DNA of 64,000 bases. Origin: a virus. Below are positions 3,430 through 25,125 of the stretch, piece after piece; within the stretch, counting starts at the first letter, position 1, and each line of letters opens with the position of its first letter. The translations under genes and the position numbers were made by a program. Location of the stretch: positions 1-64,000 of the IMG/VR virus record IMGVR_UViG_3300042311_000389. One strand, given 5' to 3'. The notes below the pieces were generated by a model. That model made no database searches, had not been told where the DNA came from, and saw only the letters and a program-made list of their open reading frames with translations.

Positions 3430-3598
3430 AATATCCTTGACTTAATTTACTTTCTTTAATGTAACCCTCAGATATTAAGGTATCTAATTGTTTTTTTGTC
3501 TCATCTTCATTAAGTTTAAGGATGTACTTTGAGATGTAACTAATGTGGATTGGTTGTCTTAACTTATCCATTAACGATTTAATCTGTCTTTTGTCCAT
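3416..3598 (-). CDS. Hypothetical small protein, possible winged-helix fold
   Basis: A 60-residue protein. The pattern of short helices followed by TLISEGYIKESKLSQGYYVA resembles a minimal winged helix (recognition helix plus beta wing), so DNA binding is possible. No family is recognised and no acidic or catalytic cluster is seen. The start overlaps the stop of the upstream 255-residue gene as TAATG. Confidence 0.5.
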   Translation of the reverse strand: MDKRQIKSLMDKLRQPIHISYISKYILKLNEDETKKQLDTLISEGYIKESKLSQGYYVAI

Positions 3599-4365
3599 TA
3601 TGATAATAATTTTCTTGTTATTTTAACATTTTGATTAATATATGATAATATTTTTCTTTTAAATATTGGAACCAATGTTTCCTCTAACGGGAAGACATCA
3701 TTACAAAATACCTCAAATATTGGATAATACTCCTCTTTGTTTTTCTCGTATGTTTTTGAAAAAGTAGAGATAATTTCCGGTATAGTCAAACTATCCTGTT
3801 GTCCTTTGAAAACTAATTTTAAAGATGTTTTTGTTTGACCTTTTGTTTTATACACCTTTCTTGTGGTATATTGCCAAACATATAAAGTTTCAGGTGTTTT
3901 ATAAGAAAAGAACCCTGATTTGCTTTGCAGATTATTTTTGTTTTTCTTTACCACAACATCAATGGAATCAAAAACAATACTCCATATTGATTTTGCAAAG
4001 TTAAAATAGTCGTGTAGTTGTGGTTGACTAATTTTTAATATTTTTTGATACTCAATAACTTCCTCGTCATCTAACACAGGAATATCTTTAACTTTTAAAT
4101 CAGATAAGACTAGTTCATCATCATTAGAAGTTAATTTTCTATCAACATATAAAATTTTGTTTTGTGTAAGTAAGGTCTGTATATTACCCAAATGTAACGA
4201 AAGTTCGATAAACATCGGGTAGACCTCCATTCTCTCAAGATGTTTATTCATCTTTTGAAAGTAGTCCAATAAAACATACTGTTTTTGTTCGGCGTCGAGA
4301 ATACCATCAAATAACCAATCGGTATCCATTAAAAATTTATTCTTATTTTTCTGTTTCATTCCCAT
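3598..4365 (-). CDS. Hypothetical protein
   Basis: A 255-residue soluble protein of unknown function. The N-terminus (MDTDWLFDGILDAEQKQYVL) is followed by helical segments, a charged linker (residues about 85-105) and a beta-rich middle. No catalytic motif, signal peptide or membrane segment is visible. It is the first gene of the leftward run toward the methyltransferase. A weak host-type -10 (TATATTTT, one mismatch from TAnnTTTG) lies just upstream. Confidence 0.6.
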   Translation of the reverse strand: MGMKQKNKNKFLMDTDWLFDGILDAEQKQYVLLDYFQKMNKHLERMEVYPMFIELSLHLGNIQTLLTQNKILYVDRKLTSNDDELVLSDLKVKDIPVLDDEEVIEYQKILKISQPQLHDYFNFAKSIWSIVFDSIDVVVKKNKNNLQSKSGFFSYKTPETLYVWQYTTRKVYKTKGQTKTSLKLVFKGQQDSLTIPEIISTFSKTYEKNKEEYYPIFEVFCNDVFPLEETLVPIFKRKILSYINQNVKITRKLLS

Positions 4366-4413: not shown

Positions 4414-5775
4414 TTAATTAACTCTCATTATGTAATAGGTTATACCATTAACTTCTTCAGTATCATATTGACCGTCATAACTATTCATAATACCCCAACC
4501 ATCAGAGTCAACTAACCCTTGAGCTAAAGCGTCTTCATCTATATATTCCTTGAAGTCTAAACCATAGTTTCTAAGATAATCTAATGGGTCTCTTTTTACA
4601 TCTCTAACCAACTCATTAACTTTATTCTCAATCATATCTTCACTTGGTTCGGTATCAACTTCAATACTATCTAACTCTTCTTGGAGAGCTTCTATCTGAT
4701 TCTCTAAATCTTCATCGTAATCATAATAATTCTCATCATCAGAATCTAATTCCAACCTTTGTTGTTCTAAATCATATATCATAGTTTCAAGTTCATCTTT
4801 TCTTTCTTCTTGTTCATCAGTTAATTCATAATCATCATCACTAAAATAACCCTCAGGATAATCTCTAATTTGATAATCATAATCCTCTTCAGCCATTCTA
4901 ACAATAGCATCAACATCTAAATAATCTTCAATAAATGATTCACTAAATCCGTCAGCACCTACATCATCGATATAAGACACCGCATATTGTAATGCCGCAG
5001 CATCCATTTCTTCTTCAGTTCCAACAGTATATTCTCTATCTTTGAAACCAGGCATTAAAACCTCAAATTGTTGTAAACCATAATGAGTATATCTTGATGC
5101 GTACATCATATAAACATCCGCATTATTCTCTTCTAATTCTTCAATTTCTGTTTGTGTTTCATCAATAGTTTCTTGTAATTCATATGCTCTCTCGTCATTA
5201 TCATCAAGTCCCTCATACTCTTGTTCCAAATCTTGAAGTTTACTTCTCAAAATTGTTAATTTTTCAATATCCTCATCCGATAATGGTTCAATCTCACCAT
5301 TATTAACTAAGTTATCAAATAACGCGTGAGCTTTCTCTCCGGTCTCATCCCCCTGTTCTAAAGCCCACTCATCACTATCACGAAGAGATTCTTGTTCACC
5401 AAGTTTAGCATTTAGTTCTTGTTTCTCTCTAATTCTTTCACGAGGAGAACCACCATCAGAAATATATTTTTTAACTTGTAAACCACCTAAGTCACCCACT
5501 TTAGTATTACGAATATCTAATGAACCATCAATATAAGCTATTGGCCCAATATCTTTAACATCTTTACCACCCAAATCTAAATCACCGGTAATGTATAATG
5601 GTTTACCACCATATTGTTTCATTTTTCTAAAAACATTACCATTATAACTGGCATATCTCATCACATCCAAGTAATCCTCAGGAGATATTCTATAATATTC
5701 GTCCTCAGTTTCTTTGATGATTTGTTTAATTACTTTATATAATTCGGATTCTGTAAGTCTCAATTTTCTACTCAT
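4414..5775 (-). CDS. Acidic coiled-coil protein with candidate capsid-targeting N-terminus
   Basis: A 453-residue, strongly acidic protein. It opens with LRLTESELYKVIKQIIKE, an amphipathic helix ending in I-K-E. Residues about 45-105 form short repeats (LYITGDLDLGG, YIDGSLDIRN) like a small leucine-rich or beta-solenoid region. Long Glu/Asp-rich coiled-coil stretches follow at about 170-220 and 315-370. I use the ATG at 5775; an in-frame start five codons upstream would place the TATTTATT motif inside the coding region. The acidity, coiled coil and N-terminal peptide suggest a capsid-interior or scaffold-type protein, which is an inference. Confidence 0.65.
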   Translation of the reverse strand: MSRKLRLTESELYKVIKQIIKETEDEYYRISPEDYLDVMRYASYNGNVFRKMKQYGGKPLYITGDLDLGGKDVKDIGPIAYIDGSLDIRNTKVGDLGGLQVKKYISDGGSPRERIREKQELNAKLGEQESLRDSDEWALEQGDETGEKAHALFDNLVNNGEIEPLSDEDIEKLTILRSKLQDLEQEYEGLDDNDERAYELQETIDETQTEIEELEENNADVYMMYASRYTHYGLQQFEVLMPGFKDREYTVGTEEEMDAAALQYAVSYIDDVGADGFSESFIEDYLDVDAIVRMAEEDYDYQIRDYPEGYFSDDDYELTDEQEERKDELETMIYDLEQQRLELDSDDENYYDYDEDLENQIEALQEELDSIEVDTEPSEDMIENKVNELVRDVKRDPLDYLRNYGLDFKEYIDEDALAQGLVDSDGWGIMNSYDGQYDTEEVNGITYYIMRVN

Positions 5776-6115: not shown

Positions 6116-6934
6116 ATGAAATATATAAATGAGAACTCAAATAGAGGATTAGTTAATTTATTCTCCGACTACATTGTCAACAAAATAAATAAAGACAAAC
6201 AATACGATGTTGTTATTGAAGTAACCGATTGTGGTAAATTCTTTGTGGTTAATGGAATGACCAACTCCGATAAGATTTTAGATATGGTTAATGTAAAAGA
6301 GTCTTTTCTTGAGAGTTATAAATCACTACTAACTAATTTTGGTTATGAAAATGTTAATGTAATTGATTTAATTATGTATGGAAACGAATTATCAAAAAAA
6401 GATGAGTATACTTTTGACTTTTATAATTCTTCAAGACCATTATATCATCGTAATTTAATTTCAGAACTTGTTGAGAATCCTCAACCTAAATTCAATTCCA
6501 TTTCTTATAATAGTAGATTAGAATATGAATTAGATTATTCAGAGGATGATACAACTAATTTAGATTATTTTACATACGCACCATTAAACGTTTCATCCGA
6601 GTTTCCACACGGATATAGTTTAAGTATGGGAAGACAAGAATTATATTATTCAGAATACATCTCTAACCAATTATTTGACGTAATACTAACTGACAGTTTA
6701 ACTTTTAAATATTCGTCCGTTAAACAAGACGATGATAATCAAATAGACATAACATCAAATAGTATTCATCCAAAAAAAGATATTATATCAATGACACTAG
6801 ATGTATTTGATTTTGATATGTTAACATTTTACGATATGATTAAAGGTTATGATATCATTGAAGACATTACCGAACCATTCGACACTAAACCTTGGTTAGT
6901 CAGAGATAAAATTAAAGACCTGATATTATTCTAA
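6116..6934 (+). CDS. Hypothetical protein (very tentative S-adenosylmethionine synthetase-like N-terminus)
   Basis: A 272-residue soluble protein. Its first ~75 residues (GLVNLFSDYIVNKI, then a beta hairpin with FFVVNG and ILDM) vaguely follow the order seen at the start of S-adenosylmethionine synthetases, and LYHRNLISEL occurs near residue 120. The catalytic signature of that family is not visible, so I do not name it. It is transcribed rightward alone and ends at a bidirectional terminator. Confidence 0.55.
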   Translation: MKYINENSNRGLVNLFSDYIVNKINKDKQYDVVIEVTDCGKFFVVNGMTNSDKILDMVNVKESFLESYKSLLTNFGYENVNVIDLIMYGNELSKKDEYTFDFYNSSRPLYHRNLISELVENPQPKFNSISYNSRLEYELDYSEDDTTNLDYFTYAPLNVSSEFPHGYSLSMGRQELYYSEYISNQLFDVILTDSLTFKYSSVKQDDDNQIDITSNSIHPKKDIISMTLDVFDFDMLTFYDMIKGYDIIEDITEPFDTKPWLVRDKIKDLILF

Positions 6935-15015: not shown

Positions 15016-15204
15016 TTAATTTTTAATAATAAATGTTAAACAATATGATATTGCAAATCCAAGAAATATAAGTTCCCATTTACCCCACACAATTGGCTTA
15101 GGTGGGTTTGAAAATAGGGAACTTATTATTCTACCAACCGTTCTTAAAACGGTCAAAACAGAAAAGATAAATACAAATAAAAATATTGTATTAAGATTAT
15201 CCAT
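15016..15204 (-). CDS. Small membrane protein with two membrane segments
   Basis: A 62-residue protein with two hydrophobic helices: TIFLFVFIFSVLTVL near the N-terminus and LIFLGFAISYCLTFI near the C-terminus, separated by a short polar loop with NPPKPIVWGK. Size and topology fit a class II holin-like protein, but the lysis cluster is 3 kb away, so this is only a possibility. Its ATG overlaps the stop of the H1-like gene as TAATG. Confidence 0.6.
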   Translation of the reverse strand: MDNLNTIFLFVFIFSVLTVLRTVGRIISSLFSNPPKPIVWGKWELIFLGFAISYCLTFIIKN

Positions 15205-15380
15205 TACTCGTCTTTTTTTCTTTCAGATAAAATCTCTTTTCTTAGACTATCTAATAATTTTTTTAAATCTTGTGCAGATTTTCTAGCTCTTGTTCCAGCA
15301 CTGTTATTACCACCAAAAAATTTTGTGGTGTCTACTGATAATTCTTCAACTAAAGCTTTAATTTGTTCTAATGTTTCCAT
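15204..15380 (-). CDS. Histone H1-like DNA-binding protein
   Basis: A 58-residue protein too short for most gene finders. METLEQIKALVEEL is followed by TTKFFGGNNSAGTRARKSAQ and a Lys-rich helical tail (LRKEILSERKK). The NxxAGTRARK segment is the hallmark of the short histone H1-like proteins of Bacteroidota, which bind and compact DNA. The phage copy may organise phage DNA or compete with the host nucleoid protein. The start is the ATG at 15380 and the stop overlaps the next gene as TAATG. An AATTTATTAAAACAATT segment upstream resembles the late-type promoter flank at 11417 but lacks the exact core. Confidence 0.75.
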   Translation of the reverse strand: METLEQIKALVEELSVDTTKFFGGNNSAGTRARKSAQDLKKLLDSLRKEILSERKKDE

Positions 15381-15460: not shown

Positions 15461-15928
15461 TTAATATTGGACGTGTTTATCAAGGATTTTATATATGGTT
15501 GTTACCATATCTAAATCTGATTTTGTAAATGATTTTTTGTAATTGAATAGGTCGGTGAAGAAATGACCTATTGAGGTCTTAACCTTATATTCTTTTTGAC
15601 TATAAAACGTTTCATCAAAAAATGATTCAAAATAATCAAAGTGACCACCTTTTTCATCAAATTTTATGTTTTCCTGACCAAAATTAGTGATTACCTTATT
15701 CCAACACCATTCAAAGTGATTTCGTTTATCATCATCAGTTAAATCAATCTTAATCTCATTAGACGAATCTAATTCCCCTAAATAAGTGTTTAAGATTAAT
15801 TGATTAAGTGAATGCGTTAAATCAGAATACAATTCCATTTTTTCCGGAATTATATTATTACTCTTAAACCAAAGGTCTACTTCTTCAGGTAATAAAGGTT
15901 TTGATATGTAGCTAAAAAAATTCTCCAT
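15461..15928 (-). CDS. Hypothetical protein with a start codon inside a terminator-like hairpin
   Basis: A 155-residue soluble acidic protein with no recognised family (KSNNIIPEKMELYSDLTHSL near the start, HFEWCWNKVI in the middle). I choose the ATG at 15928. A longer frame begins at a TTG at 16000 inside the preceding gene and is less likely. The chosen ATG and the next codons lie in the 3-prime arm of a perfect 11-bp inverted repeat followed by seven T, so translation or transcription of this gene is probably controlled by that structure. Confidence 0.55.
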   Translation of the reverse strand: MENFFSYISKPLLPEEVDLWFKSNNIIPEKMELYSDLTHSLNQLILNTYLGELDSSNEIKIDLTDDDKRNHFEWCWNKVITNFGQENIKFDEKGGHFDYFESFFDETFYSQKEYKVKTSIGHFFTDLFNYKKSFTKSDLDMVTTIYKILDKHVQY

Positions 15929-15946
15929 AGAGTTGTCTATGGAGAA
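15914..15946 (-). terminator. Terminator/attenuator hairpin spanning the start of the 15461-15928 gene
   Basis: TTCTCCATAGA (15921-15931) and TCTATGGAGAA (15936-15946) are perfect inverted repeats with a 4-base loop. Reading leftward, the hairpin is followed by TTTTTTT (15914-15920), the layout of an intrinsic terminator. It ends the 15975-17195 transcript, but its 3-prime arm also carries the start codon of the next gene. Confidence 0.8.
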
Positions 15947-15974
15947 ATTATAAGTTAGAATATTTGTTTGTAAA

Positions 15975-17195
15975 TTATTGTGTTTTTCTATCGTACCCAA
16001 TCAACGATTTCATTCTATCAAATTCTTCATTGATTTGTTTTGTTTTTTTGTCTTCAGTAGACTCTAATTTAACACTTACACCTTTACCTTTTTCAGTTCC
16101 GCTTTTTTCGTTAAAAACCGGTTGAGATACTCTATTATAGGATTGGTCTTTTAATTTTTTAAGAGTGTTTTTCTTTCTTAATTTATTAAACCTATCATTT
16201 GCTTTAGACTCTAATGCGTTTCCACCCGGAGCGTTTCCTGTTGTTGAATCCCCTTTATATAATTTTTCCATAAAATCTTCATTAAATTCTATAGCGTCAG
16301 GTGTTGGTAAATTTAAACCGGCAATTTCATAATTAAAATCTTCTAAATCATCAGTCATTTCAAAAGCCTTTTTATCCATTTTCTCTAACTCACCATTACC
16401 TACCGGAAATGTTTTTGGATTCATATCGTACTCACCTTTAGAACCATCTTTAAGGTAATCTTTCATTTTCTTAGCAACAGATTTAATGTAATCATCATTT
16501 TCTTTACCATCTTTTGCGTGAATTTGTTTGTATTTTTCTAATCCTCTTGGAGAACCTCCAACAACTTTAATATTTGTTTTATTTTTATCTTTCTCTTCCT
16601 TAACAATTTTTTCAATTAAACTAATCATTTCAGTTTCAGTTAAAGAATACGATTCTTTAACCGGATATTCTTTACCATCCACTTCAAAAGAATCTTCACC
16701 ACTTTTCTTAGCATTAGATAAAGCTCCTGAAAACGCATTACCTTCATCCGTTTCAGTTTTTTTTCCTTTTCTTAACATTTTGAAATCCTCAGCGTCAATC
16801 TTATTGTTTTTGTTTCTATCTAATTTTCTTTGACGACCTTTTAATGCTTCAGTAATATTAACCCCTTGACACATTTCTTTCGTAACCTTATCATCTTTAC
16901 CAAAATTTTCAATATGGTATCTACAAGTTTTTTCTTTATCTTCGTCAGTAGATTCATTTTTGGTTACATAATCAAATTCACCATCTAATTTTTCGTCAAC
17001 ATCATAGATATCTTCATACATATCACCGCCTTTAGAACCACATTCGTTACATTCACCTTCATATATAGTTCCACCACATTCACACACGCTGCCACCTTTA
17101 ATTTTAGAAACAAGACTATCCACCTTTTCTTCTAATGTTTCTTTTAAAACTTTAGACACTAAATTATCTAAATAAGTTGTATTTAATTTTTTCAT
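15975..17195 (-). CDS. Candidate capsid-interior/scaffold-type protein
   Basis: A 406-residue, charged, largely disordered-looking protein. It opens with KKLNTTYLDNLVSKVLKETL, ending in L-K-E. A possible zinc ribbon CECGGTIYEGECNECG lies at about 38-53 and an EF-hand-like loop DRNKNNKIDAEDF near 125. A second LTETEMISLIEKIVKEEK copy of the helical peptide sits at about 186-203. The C-terminus is INEEFDRMKSLIGY. The composition and repeated (L/I)-x-E sites fit a prohead core or internal protein cut by a gp21-type protease, which is an inference. A TATTTATA motif is 13 bases upstream. Confidence 0.6.
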   Translation of the reverse strand: MKKLNTTYLDNLVSKVLKETLEEKVDSLVSKIKGGSVCECGGTIYEGECNECGSKGGDMYEDIYDVDEKLDGEFDYVTKNESTDEDKEKTCRYHIENFGKDDKVTKEMCQGVNITEALKGRQRKLDRNKNNKIDAEDFKMLRKGKKTETDEGNAFSGALSNAKKSGEDSFEVDGKEYPVKESYSLTETEMISLIEKIVKEEKDKNKTNIKVVGGSPRGLEKYKQIHAKDGKENDDYIKSVAKKMKDYLKDGSKGEYDMNPKTFPVGNGELEKMDKKAFEMTDDLEDFNYEIAGLNLPTPDAIEFNEDFMEKLYKGDSTTGNAPGGNALESKANDRFNKLRKKNTLKKLKDQSYNRVSQPVFNEKSGTEKGKGVSVKLESTEDKKTKQINEEFDRMKSLIGYDRKTQ

Positions 17196-17208
17196 TTTTA
17201 GTTTTTAT

Positions 17209-17216
17209 TATAAATA
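17209..17216 (-). promoter_or_regulatory. Late-type motif TATTTATA
   Basis: On the minus strand TATTTATAATAAAAACT is 13 bases before the ATG at 17195. It is nearly identical over 16 bases to the motif at 11417, supporting a shared function. Confidence 0.6.
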
Positions 17217-17231
17217 TATTAGTTTTTAACT

Positions 17232-21276: not shown

Positions 21277-21308
21277 AAAACCTTCTATTATAATAAATAG
21301 AAGGTTTT
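21277..21308 (-). terminator. Rho-independent terminator of the sigma-factor operon
   Basis: AAAACCTTCTATT (21277-21289) pairs perfectly with AATAGAAGGTTTT (21296-21308), and reading leftward the stem is followed by further T residues. It lies 7 bases after the sigma gene stop. The loop and 3-prime arm contain TATTTATT on the minus strand. Confidence 0.88.
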
Positions 21309-21315
21309 AAAGTTT

Positions 21316-22116
21316 TTACATATATTCAAATAAAATTGAACTATCATTCCTTAATTTTCGTAAGGCTTTCTCTTTGATTTGTCTAACACGTTCCTTAGTT
21401 AGATTAAAATCTCCACCAATATCTTCAAGTGTTCTTGGGGTCCCACTAAGACCGTAATAGTCCTCAACAATTACTTTTTCTCTTTCATCTAAAACACTTA
21501 GTAATGAATGTAATTGTAACTTCAATTCATCTTTAGTGTTGAAAACCTCATCCGGCATATCCGCTTGGTCATTTTTAATAATATCAACAAGAGTATCTCC
21601 ATCTTCGTTGATGTTCATATCTAAATCAATCATTGAAGGTAGGTTTTGAAACTTATCCTCCAATTTACCACCATTAGATTCAATTGCTTTCTTGGCTCTA
21701 TGTAAATCTTGAACAACATTAACCGGTAGTCTGATTGTACGAGCATTATCGTTCAGAGATTGAAGTATGGATTGTTTAACCCACCACACAGCATAAGATA
21801 TGAATCTAAGATTCTTAGACCAATCAAAATTTTGGATTGCTTTCATCAATCCTAAGTTACCCTCAGAGATTAAATCAGGGAAGTCTAAACCTTGATTTTG
21901 ATATTGTTTAGCAACTGTAATAACAAAACGTAAGTTACCCTCCAACAATTCTTGGTTTACTTCATCAATCTCTCTTGGAGATAAAGTCCCGGACATAATC
22001 AATTTAGATAATTCTCTCTCTCTTTCAGGAGTCATTACTTTAATCTTACGAATGTCTTTTAAATACAAGTTAATCTCTTCTTGATTAATTGGAATACCTG
22101 AGCTTTTTTCTTTCAT
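21316..22116 (-). CDS. RNA polymerase sigma-70 family factor
   Basis: A 266-residue sigma factor. INLYLKDI matches region 1.2. Region 2 spans about 64-125, with NLRFVITVAKQYQNQGLDF, DLISEGNLGLM (core binding) and FISYAVWWVKQSI (-10 recognition and melting). Region 3 is shortened and variable (about 130-190), and region 4.2 is the helix-turn-helix TLEDIGGDFNLTKERVRQIK near 227-246. It is as short as Bacteroidota primary sigma factors and clearly related to them. It probably redirects host RNA polymerase to phage promoters, possibly the TATTTAT(A/T/G) class. It is expressed behind a host-type promoter and followed by a terminator. Confidence 0.95.
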   Translation of the reverse strand: MKEKSSGIPINQEEINLYLKDIRKIKVMTPERERELSKLIMSGTLSPREIDEVNQELLEGNLRFVITVAKQYQNQGLDFPDLISEGNLGLMKAIQNFDWSKNLRFISYAVWWVKQSILQSLNDNARTIRLPVNVVQDLHRAKKAIESNGGKLEDKFQNLPSMIDLDMNINEDGDTLVDIIKNDQADMPDEVFNTKDELKLQLHSLLSVLDEREKVIVEDYYGLSGTPRTLEDIGGDFNLTKERVRQIKEKALRKLRNDSSILFEYM

Positions 22117-22117
22117 A

Positions 22118-22690
22118 TTAATTTGAGTATTTGTTTAGTTGTGATAATTCTTTTTCAGTCAACGAATTTAACCCTTTTTCTTTAATCTTTTCTAATAATT
22201 CGTCTAAAGATGGACTACGTTGTTTATTCTTAATTTCTTGTATATCATCTTCTTCTTCATCATAATCAAAGTCAAAGTTTTCAATGTTTAAATTAAAATT
22301 ATCTCGAATTTGTTCTTGTATCATTTTTCGTACCTCAAATTCATTTGGTTCAGAACCAAGTGATTTTTCTGACATAAAGTCACTAATCCCATCATTAAAA
22401 AGATGTTTCGATATTTTTTCAGGTAAACCATATGACAATTTGTCAGATGTGTAAGGTAGTAATACATACATTATCTCACCAACACCTAAAATCATATCAA
22501 TATAATCTTTCACATCCTCATAGGAATCTAATGTTGAGATTGTGAACACAGATGATTCTGGTCCAAAATAAAAATTAAGATTTGGTGTATCCGAAATAAC
22601 ACATAATTCTTCTGCAATTTGTTCTGTAAATTCTTTTGGGTTGTCGTTTTTAGCAAAGACAAATAAAATGTATTTGGTTAAGTCATTCAT
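22118..22690 (-). CDS. Hypothetical protein co-transcribed with the sigma factor
   Basis: A 190-residue acidic protein with an N-terminal alpha/beta part (TKYILFVFAKND, NLNFYFGPESSVFTIST), a charged linker (about 140-158) and a C-terminal helix pair SLDELLEKIKEKGLNSLTEK of a kind common at the C-termini of Bacteroidota proteins. It lies directly behind a strong host-type promoter and ends 1 base before the sigma gene, so it could regulate sigma or be a general early protein. No family is recognised. Confidence 0.65.
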   Translation of the reverse strand: MNDLTKYILFVFAKNDNPKEFTEQIAEELCVISDTPNLNFYFGPESSVFTISTLDSYEDVKDYIDMILGVGEIMYVLLPYTSDKLSYGLPEKISKHLFNDGISDFMSEKSLGSEPNEFEVRKMIQEQIRDNFNLNIENFDFDYDEEEDDIQEIKNKQRSPSLDELLEKIKEKGLNSLTEKELSQLNKYSN

Positions 22691-22721: not shown

Positions 22722-22752
22722 CAAAGATACGAAAAAAATTATGTTTCCCAAA
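22722..22752 (-). promoter_or_regulatory. Host-type promoter for the sigma-factor operon
   Basis: On the minus strand TTTG (22749-22752), 19 bases, then TATCTTTG (22722-22729). The -33 box lies inside the terminator hairpin of the upstream gp46-like gene, so terminator and promoter overlap. The ATG at 22690 is 31 bases downstream. Confidence 0.78.
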
Positions 22753-22771
22753 CTTTTATTGGGAAACATAA
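22739..22771 (-). terminator. Rho-independent terminator overlapping the end of the gp46-like gene
   Basis: TTATGTTTCCCAA and TTGGGAAACATAA are perfect 13-base arms with a 7-base loop, followed on the minus strand by seven T. The 5-prime arm encodes the last residues of the gp46-like protein (YVSQ). Confidence 0.9.
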
Positions 22772-25125
22772 CTAATATTTTCTTCTTTTCTAATTCTCAC
22801 CACATTATCAGCCCAATTTGTTACTAATGGGTTGTGTGTGATAACGAATATTTTCTCAAAGTATTCTTTAATCTTACTAAAAAACTCTGATACCATCTCC
22901 AAGTTGTCGTTGGACATCTTCCCGAACACCTCGTCAAATACAACGACGTTAGCTCTTGGTAATGAACATATCTTACTTAACACCGCTCTTAACGCTAGTG
23001 AAGCAATTGACCTTTCATATCCGGACCCGGACGCCATTGGTTTCTCAACTTGAGTGTTGTTATCAATCATAAGGAAGTCAACTTCATTCTTATCGTTAAT
23101 CTTAACTTCTAATCTAAAGTGACAACTATCCTCTAATAATCGTTGAAGTTCACTATTAATAAGTGGCATCATTGTCTTCATAATAAGTTTGGTTACACCA
23201 TTCTTACCAAAGATTTCCAAATAGATTTTATAGATTCTTTCTCTTTCGGCCTCTTCAGCAATCTTTCTAATTGTTTCCAAGTTAGAAGTTATTTTGGTAG
23301 TTAGATTGGTAATTGTAAACTTATTGTTTGAGATACTAGTTTCAATAGTTTTCTTTTCACCCTCAAGTTCATCAATTCTAATCGCCGCTTTAATCAACAA
23401 TCCATCTGTCTTATTGTTTTCCACAATCTTATCTTGAACTTCAGAATATCTTTCTAATTTGGTTTTCAATGAGTCAATCATCAATTGGAAACGTTCAACA
23501 CTTAATTCATATTTCTCTTTAATAAGTTTGTTTTTCTCATACTCATCAAACTCTTTTTTAAGGTTCACAAAACTTAACTCTTTGCCGGTTAAATCCTGCA
23601 TTAACCCTTCTAATTCCTCTTTATGCGTGATAAGTCCGGCAAGTTCCCCAATTTTGGCGTTAGTTATAGCCGCGTTCATCAGTTCAATACCACAGTGTTC
23701 ACATTTGATTCCACCATCAACCGAACTCTTCAGTTCTTCAATACTTTTAATCTTGGCGTTATTCTCCGCTTGTTTGGTAATCAAATCTTTAATCTCCTGT
23801 TTTACCTCATCGTGTTTATCTTCGTGGTAAAATTCTGATGGTTCTACAACCTTAACACCATCTCTATCTGAAATAGCTTTGGCTTTTTGTAGGTCCAACC
23901 CATTAATCTCTTCCTGAACTTTGTCCGGAGAAACCGTTACCAATTCATTGTCAATATTGTGTTTGGACTTTAACAATCCATCACGATATTCCTGACCTTT
24001 AAGGATTCTTGATTTAGCATCTTCTAACTGAACATCTAATGTTAGATTACTCTCCGTTAAAGTATCTATGGTATCTTGACTAGTTTGGTTATCCGTTTTA
24101 AGTTCTTCAGAGTTATAGATGTTTGACAACATTCCTTTTGAGAAGTCACTATAAATTTCTTTGGCAGCTTCTTCTTTACGTTTAAGGAAATCCAACCCCA
24201 TAAATCTTGAAAGAACTTGACCCCTCGCCGTAGGTTTGGCATCAATTAGTTCTTCCAAGTTGGTGGCAGTTGTTAGGATGGTCATTAAGAAGTCCTCTTT
24301 GGTCCCGATAGACGTTTTGATAAACGCCTCGGTCTCTCTTCGTTGTTCTCCGGTGAAGTTTTGTAAACTACCATCAGACAATCTTTTATAGAAGTCCAAC
24401 TCGGTCTTAACCGTCCATTCACCTTTTTTTGATAACTTTCTTTCAATATTTCTCAATATGATATACTCCTCACCATCAATTGTAATCTCACCTTTTACGG
24501 CAACTTTGTTTCTCTCTGTAAACCTGTTGAATATCTCCTCCGCCTTTGATGTCTTGGTTGTCTCATTAAAGAATAAGAACATAAGTAAATCCACAGTCAA
24601 AACTGTCTTACCCCCAAAGTTAGGTGGGTTTGACTCCACAACCGTAATCCCATCACACTTCTCAAAATCTATCTTCTGATTCTCACCATAGGATAAAAAG
24701 TTTGAGAACTCAATGTTCTTAATATACCATCTTTTAAACGGAGCAGCATCAGTTTGAGTTTGTAACAATTTGTTATCCACAATACTATTAAGTTGGTAGA
24801 TATCATCGTAGTGTTCCATATTCCCTTTTGACTCCAAGAATGAACGAACTAATTCTAATTGATAGTTCTCATCCAAGATGTTAAAGGATATGTCTACGGT
24901 ATGTGTGGTGTCGTCAGCAACCTTTGTCTTTGTAATAACATTAACATTGGTTGTGTTGTACTTCTTTTGAAAGTAATGACGAACACTTTTTATTTTTTCT
25001 TGTGTAAAGTTTTCAGCATAGTCCTCCCATACAATCTGTAGGTAAGGATTATCAAAACTTGTGATATCTAAATCTTTTATCATTATTGTGTAATTAAATT
25101 CTATGGGGGGATTGAATAAATCCAT
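22756..25125 (-). CDS. gp46/SbcC/Rad50-like recombination nuclease ATPase subunit
   Basis: A 789-residue SMC-like ATPase, expected to work with the gp47-like nuclease at 27277 in end resection for recombination-dependent replication. WYIKNIEFSNFLSYGE opens the ATPase domain, Walker A is near 161-170, two coiled-coil arms flank a zinc hook CEHC near 475, and the signature SGSGYERS (about 703) and Walker B VVVFDEVFG (about 728) follow. Walker A reads SNPPNFGGKT, with Pro replacing the first canonical Gly. About 125 residues precede the ATPase domain, which is unusual. Translation may instead start at the ATG at 25083 (MIKDLD). Confidence 0.9.
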   Translation of the reverse strand: MDLFNPPIEFNYTIMIKDLDITSFDNPYLQIVWEDYAENFTQEKIKSVRHYFQKKYNTTNVNVITKTKVADDTTHTVDISFNILDENYQLELVRSFLESKGNMEHYDDIYQLNSIVDNKLLQTQTDAAPFKRWYIKNIEFSNFLSYGENQKIDFEKCDGITVVESNPPNFGGKTVLTVDLLMFLFFNETTKTSKAEEIFNRFTERNKVAVKGEITIDGEEYIILRNIERKLSKKGEWTVKTELDFYKRLSDGSLQNFTGEQRRETEAFIKTSIGTKEDFLMTILTTATNLEELIDAKPTARGQVLSRFMGLDFLKRKEEAAKEIYSDFSKGMLSNIYNSEELKTDNQTSQDTIDTLTESNLTLDVQLEDAKSRILKGQEYRDGLLKSKHNIDNELVTVSPDKVQEEINGLDLQKAKAISDRDGVKVVEPSEFYHEDKHDEVKQEIKDLITKQAENNAKIKSIEELKSSVDGGIKCEHCGIELMNAAITNAKIGELAGLITHKEELEGLMQDLTGKELSFVNLKKEFDEYEKNKLIKEKYELSVERFQLMIDSLKTKLERYSEVQDKIVENNKTDGLLIKAAIRIDELEGEKKTIETSISNNKFTITNLTTKITSNLETIRKIAEEAERERIYKIYLEIFGKNGVTKLIMKTMMPLINSELQRLLEDSCHFRLEVKINDKNEVDFLMIDNNTQVEKPMASGSGYERSIASLALRAVLSKICSLPRANVVVFDEVFGKMSNDNLEMVSEFFSKIKEYFEKIFVITHNPLVTNWADNVVRIRKEENISYVSQ

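Follow-up and report, generated by a model that had tools for sequence, protein, structure and literature searches.

In phage T4, the Shine-Dalgarno sequence and/or the AUG of the genes e, soc, 49 and I-TevI is sequestered in long transcripts, and late promoters near the start of e and I-TevI give rise to transcripts without the 5′ portion, which are translated (PMC3014915 and PMC2988022, in the portions available of both reports). In IS200, one stem-loop is reported to terminate impinging transcripts and a second one to occlude the ribosome binding site (PMC3196728, available portion). Here we analyzed a 64,000-nucleotide stretch of viral DNA (the window; positions 1 to 64,000 of IMG/VR record IMGVR_UViG_3300042311_000389), in which a hairpin conserved by compensatory change contains the start codon of a gene and a promoter-like block is placed directly beside its 5′ arm. 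The features of this locus are the following:

15461..15928, minus strand: regulated gene, 155 aa (MENFFSYI...), of a family without known function; start backed by 72 relatives
15914..15920, minus strand: U7 tract, encoding the end of Asn3 and Phe4-Phe5
15921..15931, minus strand: 3′ arm of the hairpin, TCTATGGAGAA, containing the ATG (15928-15926) and most of codons 2-3
15932..15935, minus strand: hairpin loop CAAC, whose letters and length vary among relatives
15936..15946, minus strand: 5′ arm of the hairpin, TTCTCCATAGA, supported by sequence, folding and covariation
15940, minus strand: predicted transcription start inside the 5′ arm, assumed by position rule as the 7th nt after the -10
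15947..15952, minus strand: -10-like hexamer TATAAT, immediately 5′ of the 5′ arm
15969..15974, minus strand: -35-like hexamer TTTACA, 16 nt from the -10
15975..17195, minus strand: upstream gene, 406 aa, with a TATATTTATAAT element ~13 nt before its ATG; its transcripts would enter the hairpin
21316..22116, minus strand: phage sigma-70-type factor with regions 1.2, 2 and 4, a candidate user of the TTTACA/TATAAT block

The locus resembles T4 e, soc, 49 and I-TevI as well as Aeh1 mobE in that a hairpin over the start region, here a predicted one, is formed in transcripts initiated upstream (PMC3014915 and PMC2988022, same portions). As described there for e and I-TevI, a nearby promoter, here a predicted one, would produce transcripts that drop the 5′ portion. 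The pairing of the start codon in the long transcript, as in these two genes, is indicated here by prediction (probability of an open AUG, P(AUG open), at most 0.02 in 44/44 start regions) and by compensatory changes. While T4 uses the late promoter TATAAATA, the focal gene has no such T4-type promoter but a TTTACA-N16-TATAAT block, and no Shine-Dalgarno sequence was seen by eye upstream of the hairpin ATG. Moreover, most relatives carry a U tract behind the stem, whereas the layout of e, soc and I-TevI is without one, and the gene family is unrelated to T4 e, soc, 49, I-TevI and Aeh1 mobE.

With IS200 the element would share a transcriptional plus translational block against read-through (PMC3196728, available portion); in that account IS200 relies on two separate stem-loops, whereas here one stem would serve both purposes and has a predicted promoter start inside it. 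The stem, short loop and U tract are those of an intrinsic (rho-independent) terminator, from which the element differs in that 4 of its 11 pairs are G-C, that it contains the AUG of the next gene and that 13 of 89 start regions have a short U run. Read-through protection similar to that proposed for the focal element is found in IS10 and IS50. The available part of PMC4265352 yielded no passage on IS50 read-through protection, and in the accessible text of the open-access literature we found no description of this gene family, nor one of a single stem that terminates and hides an AUG with a promoter start inside.

The regulated gene and its start-codon hairpin

A scan of viral contigs returned 73 loci encoding relatives of the regulated gene, 72 of them with full 5′ sequence (first set). 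The conserved protein starts at the hairpin ATG or its counterpart in all of these 72, and an in-frame stop lies 6-84 nt upstream of this ATG in 72/72; in the nearest relative (L001, 90% identity) the stop is 12 nt upstream. Since in-frame stops precede the ATG in the relatives, the TTG at 16000 is not conserved as a start codon. We rejected it as the start codon, and its use, which the original prediction had named as the observation that would speak against its own reading, found no support. Additional ATG, GTG or TTG codons between the upstream stop and the ATG are present in 16/72 relatives, mostly 6-9 nt upstream, and slightly longer proteins are possible in these.

The gene product was modeled as an all-helical protein (pLDDT 89.8). 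Searches gave no match in Pfam (E<=0.1), PHROGs (E<=0.01) or PDB folds (E<=0.001), nothing significant among PDB sequences and a single match in BFVD (E<=0.001), which is an uncharacterised phage protein. No relatives were confirmed in one scan of genome contigs and none matched in a named-phage collection. A baseplate protein of the virus is 27% identical to those of Flavobacterium phages (immuto) and of a Microcystis phage, and the primase is 33% identical to that of immuto. Named phages thus appear to be only distant relatives, and a Bacteroidota host is possible.

We confirmed the 11-bp perfect inverted repeat with a 4-nt loop and U7 on the minus strand (15946-15914), as claimed by the original prediction, together with the location of the ATG of gene 15461-15928 in the 3′ arm. 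A gap of 28 nt separates the stop of the upstream gene (15975) from the hairpin, which extends into the next gene. Its folding energy of -15.0 kcal/mol compares with -3.7 +/- 1.9 for shuffled sequences (z -5.9), none of the 200 shuffles being equally stable. A terminator scan includes the hairpin (11 pairs, 4 of them G-C) as one of 20 terminator-like sites in 19 kb, compared with 6.5 in shuffles. Its exact sequence is present in a single copy in the 70.7-kb virus record containing the window, and Rfam covariance models gave 0 matches in the window at gathering score. With a covariance model of the hairpin itself we obtained 126 matches, all at this one site (74 sources, 781 kb, both strands counted), so the hairpin was rejected as a repeated element. 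Plus-strand matches occurred in 69/74 sources, with L041 and L052 reaching no better than E 0.56 and 0.81; there was no match in L055 (truncated), L057, L062, L067 and L073. Among 585 ORF starts (ORFs of at least 80 codons in the window and 37 loci), the strongest start-codon hairpins are 22 in number, and all 22 belong to ORFs that begin M[EDT]N like gene 15461-15928. Weaker start-codon hairpins are predicted at the starts of the window genes 3598-4365 and 6116-6934.

The 72 relatives of the first set and the window represent 44 distinct start regions. A second scan gave 337 encoding loci, and the best 80 of these 337 contributed 52 distinct start regions, 46 of which are absent from the first set; this best-80 set is closer to the window and therefore less diverse. 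The total is 90 distinct start regions including L115, or 89 without L115, which has no CAT; L055 was left out of all start-region counts. In both sets the 5′ arm was anchored on the CAT partner of the ATG, which makes pairs +1 to +3 invariant by construction. The hairpin is retained in the 90 distinct start regions with compensatory changes and, judged from this comparison, is therefore not a chance structure.

In the first set, pairs -1, +1 to +4, +7 and +8 are standard in 44/44 start regions (+1 to +3 by construction), followed by pair +5 (42/44), +6 (37/44), -2 (38/40) and -3 (34/37). Pair +6 corresponds to the third base of codon 2 and is C-G in 18, G-C in 7, A-T in 6, T-A in 5, G-T in 1 and T-T in 7 of the 44; hence this base can be G, C, T or A, and the upstream partner usually matches. 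In the seven start regions with T-T the core hairpin is weak (-5.3 to -7.1 kcal/mol), and 12/44 start regions carry a G-T pair at +4. The second set is more uniform, with pairs -1 to +8 all Watson-Crick in the 45/45 CAT-anchored start regions. In its 46th member, L115, TAT replaces CAT, which by eye results in a G-T pair at the G of the ATG. The gap from CAT to ATG is 6-15 nt, and the letters and length of the loop vary in both sets.

For covariation we used an alignment (A3) of 35 of the 44 start regions in 34 distinct rows. It excludes four loci whose 3′ arm MAFFT had misplaced in alignment A1 (L041, L052, L057 and L062) and five near-copies (L020, L027, L043, L045 and L058), all of which were kept in the ATG-anchored count. 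Paired cells amount to 97.3% compared with 87.9% in shuffles and 37-47% when slid by 1-3, and the covariation score is 0.252 compared with 0.089. Neither value was reached in 500 shuffles, although shuffle and Fisher values overstate significance because the sequences are related. Two of the five measures are not above shuffles, namely pairs changed on both sides (4 vs 2.8; 89/500) and further pair types (12 vs 10.3; 83/500). On a tree of the first set, the minimum number of state changes is 12 for pair -3, 8 for +6, 5 for +4 and 4 for -2, where any state change counts and the tree was built from the protein without its first ten residues under a simpler model, with two flagged long branches. 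Compensatory base changes in related phages, proposed earlier as a check, are accordingly present by the A3 score. The AUG lies within the hairpin in every start region looked at, in line with the earlier claim of a start codon hidden in the stem; the hiding itself is predicted.

Two variants stand apart. In L166 (2001-2009), Glu2 is replaced by Gly (GAG to GGG) and the untranslated 5′ arm reads CCC instead of CTC, an amino-acid change that tracks the RNA stem. L041 and L052 (ATG at 4992) have an additional Asn codon and three more stem pairs, and the stem still abuts the T run.

The U tract and the question of termination

In the window, a G+C-containing stem is followed by a U tract, which is the arrangement of an intrinsic terminator. 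A T run of at least six is present in 76/89 distinct start regions (33/44 in the first set and 43/45 in the second), and termination at the U tract is likely in most relatives on the basis of these sequences. The closest alternative to our reading below is that the element is a plain intrinsic terminator of the upstream gene, its overlap with the start codon being mere compaction. The long T runs agree with this, as does the nearly invariable TTT at Phe codons 4-5 (TTT 161 : TTC 1 compared with 482 : 206 in the rest of the family genes). The preference for GAG at Glu codon 2 (GAG 59 : GAA 3 compared with 164 : 517) strengthens the stem, and the extra Asn codon and three stem pairs of L041/L052 keep the stem against the T run. 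The rest-of-gene counts come from the first set (52 distinct genes). A control with codons 2-13 of the other window genes gave TTT 20 : TTC 3 and GAG 6 : GAA 29, so the TTT bias may be partly general near starts, the GAG bias not. Against a plain terminator, the T run changed at least 4 times on the first-set tree (short in 11/44) while the AUG stayed paired in 44/44, and the promoter-like block beside the 5′ arm is left unexplained. We consider this alternative unlikely.

In total the T run is short in 13/89 start regions, where the hairpin is retained. Because of this, the predicted hiding of the AUG, which is common to all start regions examined, is the more constant part of the element, more so than the terminator. 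The terminator of the upstream gene originally predicted fits most relatives. Of the proposed attenuator and translational operator in one element, the conserved structure with its AUG stands, whereas a constant dual element does not, and the promoter-like block had been missed.

A promoter-like block beside the 5′ arm

The -35-like hexamer in relatives is TTTACA and also GTTACA, TATACA or TTCACA. When anchored on it, the match to TATAAT averages 4.43/6 at a spacer of 16 and does not exceed 2.95 at any of the other spacers between 6 and 33 (44 start regions). A -35-like block is present in 88 of the 89 start regions, and 82 of these 88 have a match of at least 5/6 at spacer 16/17, compared with 8.7 on average and no more than 18 for shuffled spacers (500 shuffles). 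The -10 is poor in L010 (TACCCT), L057 and L062, and L164 has no -35-like block by eye. The distance from the -35 varies less to the CAT (sd 0.94) than to the ATG (sd 2.65), a difference partly built in by limiting the search for the -35 to 28-36 nt from the CAT. The position of the -10 relative to the arm was measured in 82 start regions: its end coincides with the first paired base in 39, runs into the arm in 33 and lies 1-4 nt away in 10, so that it touches or overlaps the arm in 72/82. Due to the overlap in 33/82, conservation of the -10 is not fully independent of the stem.

In whole records, TTTACA-N16/17-TATNNT is not clearly enriched (65 matches vs 49 in the reversed control; 12 records), so the promoter inference rests on conservation at this site. 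An abundant TTTACA/TATAAT promoter class is unsupported by the same counts, and TTTATAA[TC], a short motif taken by itself, hardly exceeds chance overall (121 vs 103.8).

A start 7 nt after the -10 lands in the 5′ arm in the window. In read-through transcripts of the second set, P(AUG open) is predicted to be <0.1 in 45/45, in addition to the values of at most 0.02 for the first set given above. With the assumed local start it is higher in 44/44 (median 0.37), and in 8/44 the local transcript is still predicted closed (P open <0.1).

Three further explanations bear on the conserved start-codon hairpin. A translational operator recognised by a protein such as the gene product, in the manner of T4 gp43 or gp32, would account for such a hairpin being conserved at one gene only. 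It is improbable given that loop letters and length vary widely, with no fixed loop signature, and that the gene product is without recognised fold or family. A role of the stem in RNA processing or in stabilising the upstream or downstream mRNA, with at most a secondary effect on translation, would suit a stable stem between two genes; it requires neither an AUG in the stem in every relative nor a promoter-like block and is very improbable. Finally, a DNA operator, with a repressor dimer bound to a palindrome that indeed lies at the predicted transcription start, was rejected as highly improbable on the variable half-site spacing (6-15 nt instead of a fixed one), and the G-T pairs at +4 in 12/44 suit RNA pairing better.

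The region beyond the regulated gene also carries TTTAC, which occurs within 45 nt of the stop of this gene, ahead of the following gene, in 37/48 distinct sequences. This downstream gene (window 15204-15380) encodes a 58-aa histone H1-like Hc1 protein (PF07432, E 3.4e-18). In many relatives the region upstream of the Hc1 gene begins with TTTACA and carries a conserved AATAAAC.

Upstream transcripts and a proposed origin-selective switch

Transcripts of the upstream gene would enter the hairpin. In most of 38 loci this gene is preceded by GATATTTAT or a similar element (by eye), the window copy being TATATTTATAAT at about 17205-17220. The pattern GATATTTATNANNNAAA gave 32 matches in 10/12 records and 0 for the reversed control, the search covering records other than the window's own. 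We fetched 18 of the 32 sites, and in 18/18 an ORF of 40 codons or more follows within 60 nt. Comparison of 10 ORFs behind GATATTTATNANNNAAA with PHROGs gave matches for 3, which are a head maturation protease, a tape-measure-like protein and a homing endonuclease. From these contexts the promoter-like motif GATATTTATNANNNAAA probably serves this phage group as its late promoter. Those transcripts that the hairpin would shut out may be late ones, because the element of the upstream gene resembles the one before the head protease and the tape-measure-like gene. Placing the focal -10 in the same class as the TATTTATAAT of the upstream gene was dropped, as relatives show two different motifs. Sigma70_r2 was found in 9/9 related records tried, and the phage sigma factor may read the TTTACA/TATAAT block.

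Two strong terminator-like hairpins, found on both strands, lie at window 22737-22773 and 21277-21308. The former lies immediately ahead of gene 22118-22690, and this gene carries a TATCTTTG element resembling Bacteroidota host promoters.

We propose that the hairpin is part of an origin-selective expression switch, by which the gene is expressed from its own promoter and read-through from the neighbour is shut out, and assign this reading a probability of roughly 60%. RNA polymerase arriving from the upstream gene would copy the whole inverted repeat, and the read-through RNA would fold into the full hairpin with the AUG buried in the stem. Where the U tract is present, many of these transcripts would probably end there. 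Polymerase from the local promoter would start inside the 5′ arm and yield RNA without the outer 5′ strand, which could form neither the terminator nor the full lock and would be translated from a leader of ~7-15 nt. In this way the gene would be driven by its own promoter and shielded from read-through. Because the promoter-like block adjoins the 5′ arm, an attenuator that needs read-through becomes a switch that depends on transcript origin. The hairpin with its compensatory conservation, the conserved start codon and the conserved promoter-like block with its placement are observed, whereas the activity of the promoter, the start site, termination, the block on translation and the timing are what we infer in this scheme.

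A more specific version is tentative and, in our estimate, somewhat short of even odds. Here the single stem would act as a valve that terminates and translationally locks transcripts from the neighbour, and the start inside the 5′ arm would exempt local ones. The timing may be the reverse of that of T4 gene e, with late read-through excluded and an expression window of its own, possibly set via the phage sigma factor. For T4 gene e it is early read-through that is shut out, whereas the focal hairpin would shut out late read-through if the GATATTTATNANNNAAA class is late.

Overall, start-codon sequestration is backed here by broad compensatory evolution within coding sequence, in uncultured aquatic phages, where synonymous changes and even one amino-acid change keep pace with the stem. 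Should the promoter placement hold, the T4 trick of uncoupling a gene from its operon would occur in a distant phage group, joined to termination in a single element. Such an element would also amount to a compact module for sensing the origin of a transcript.
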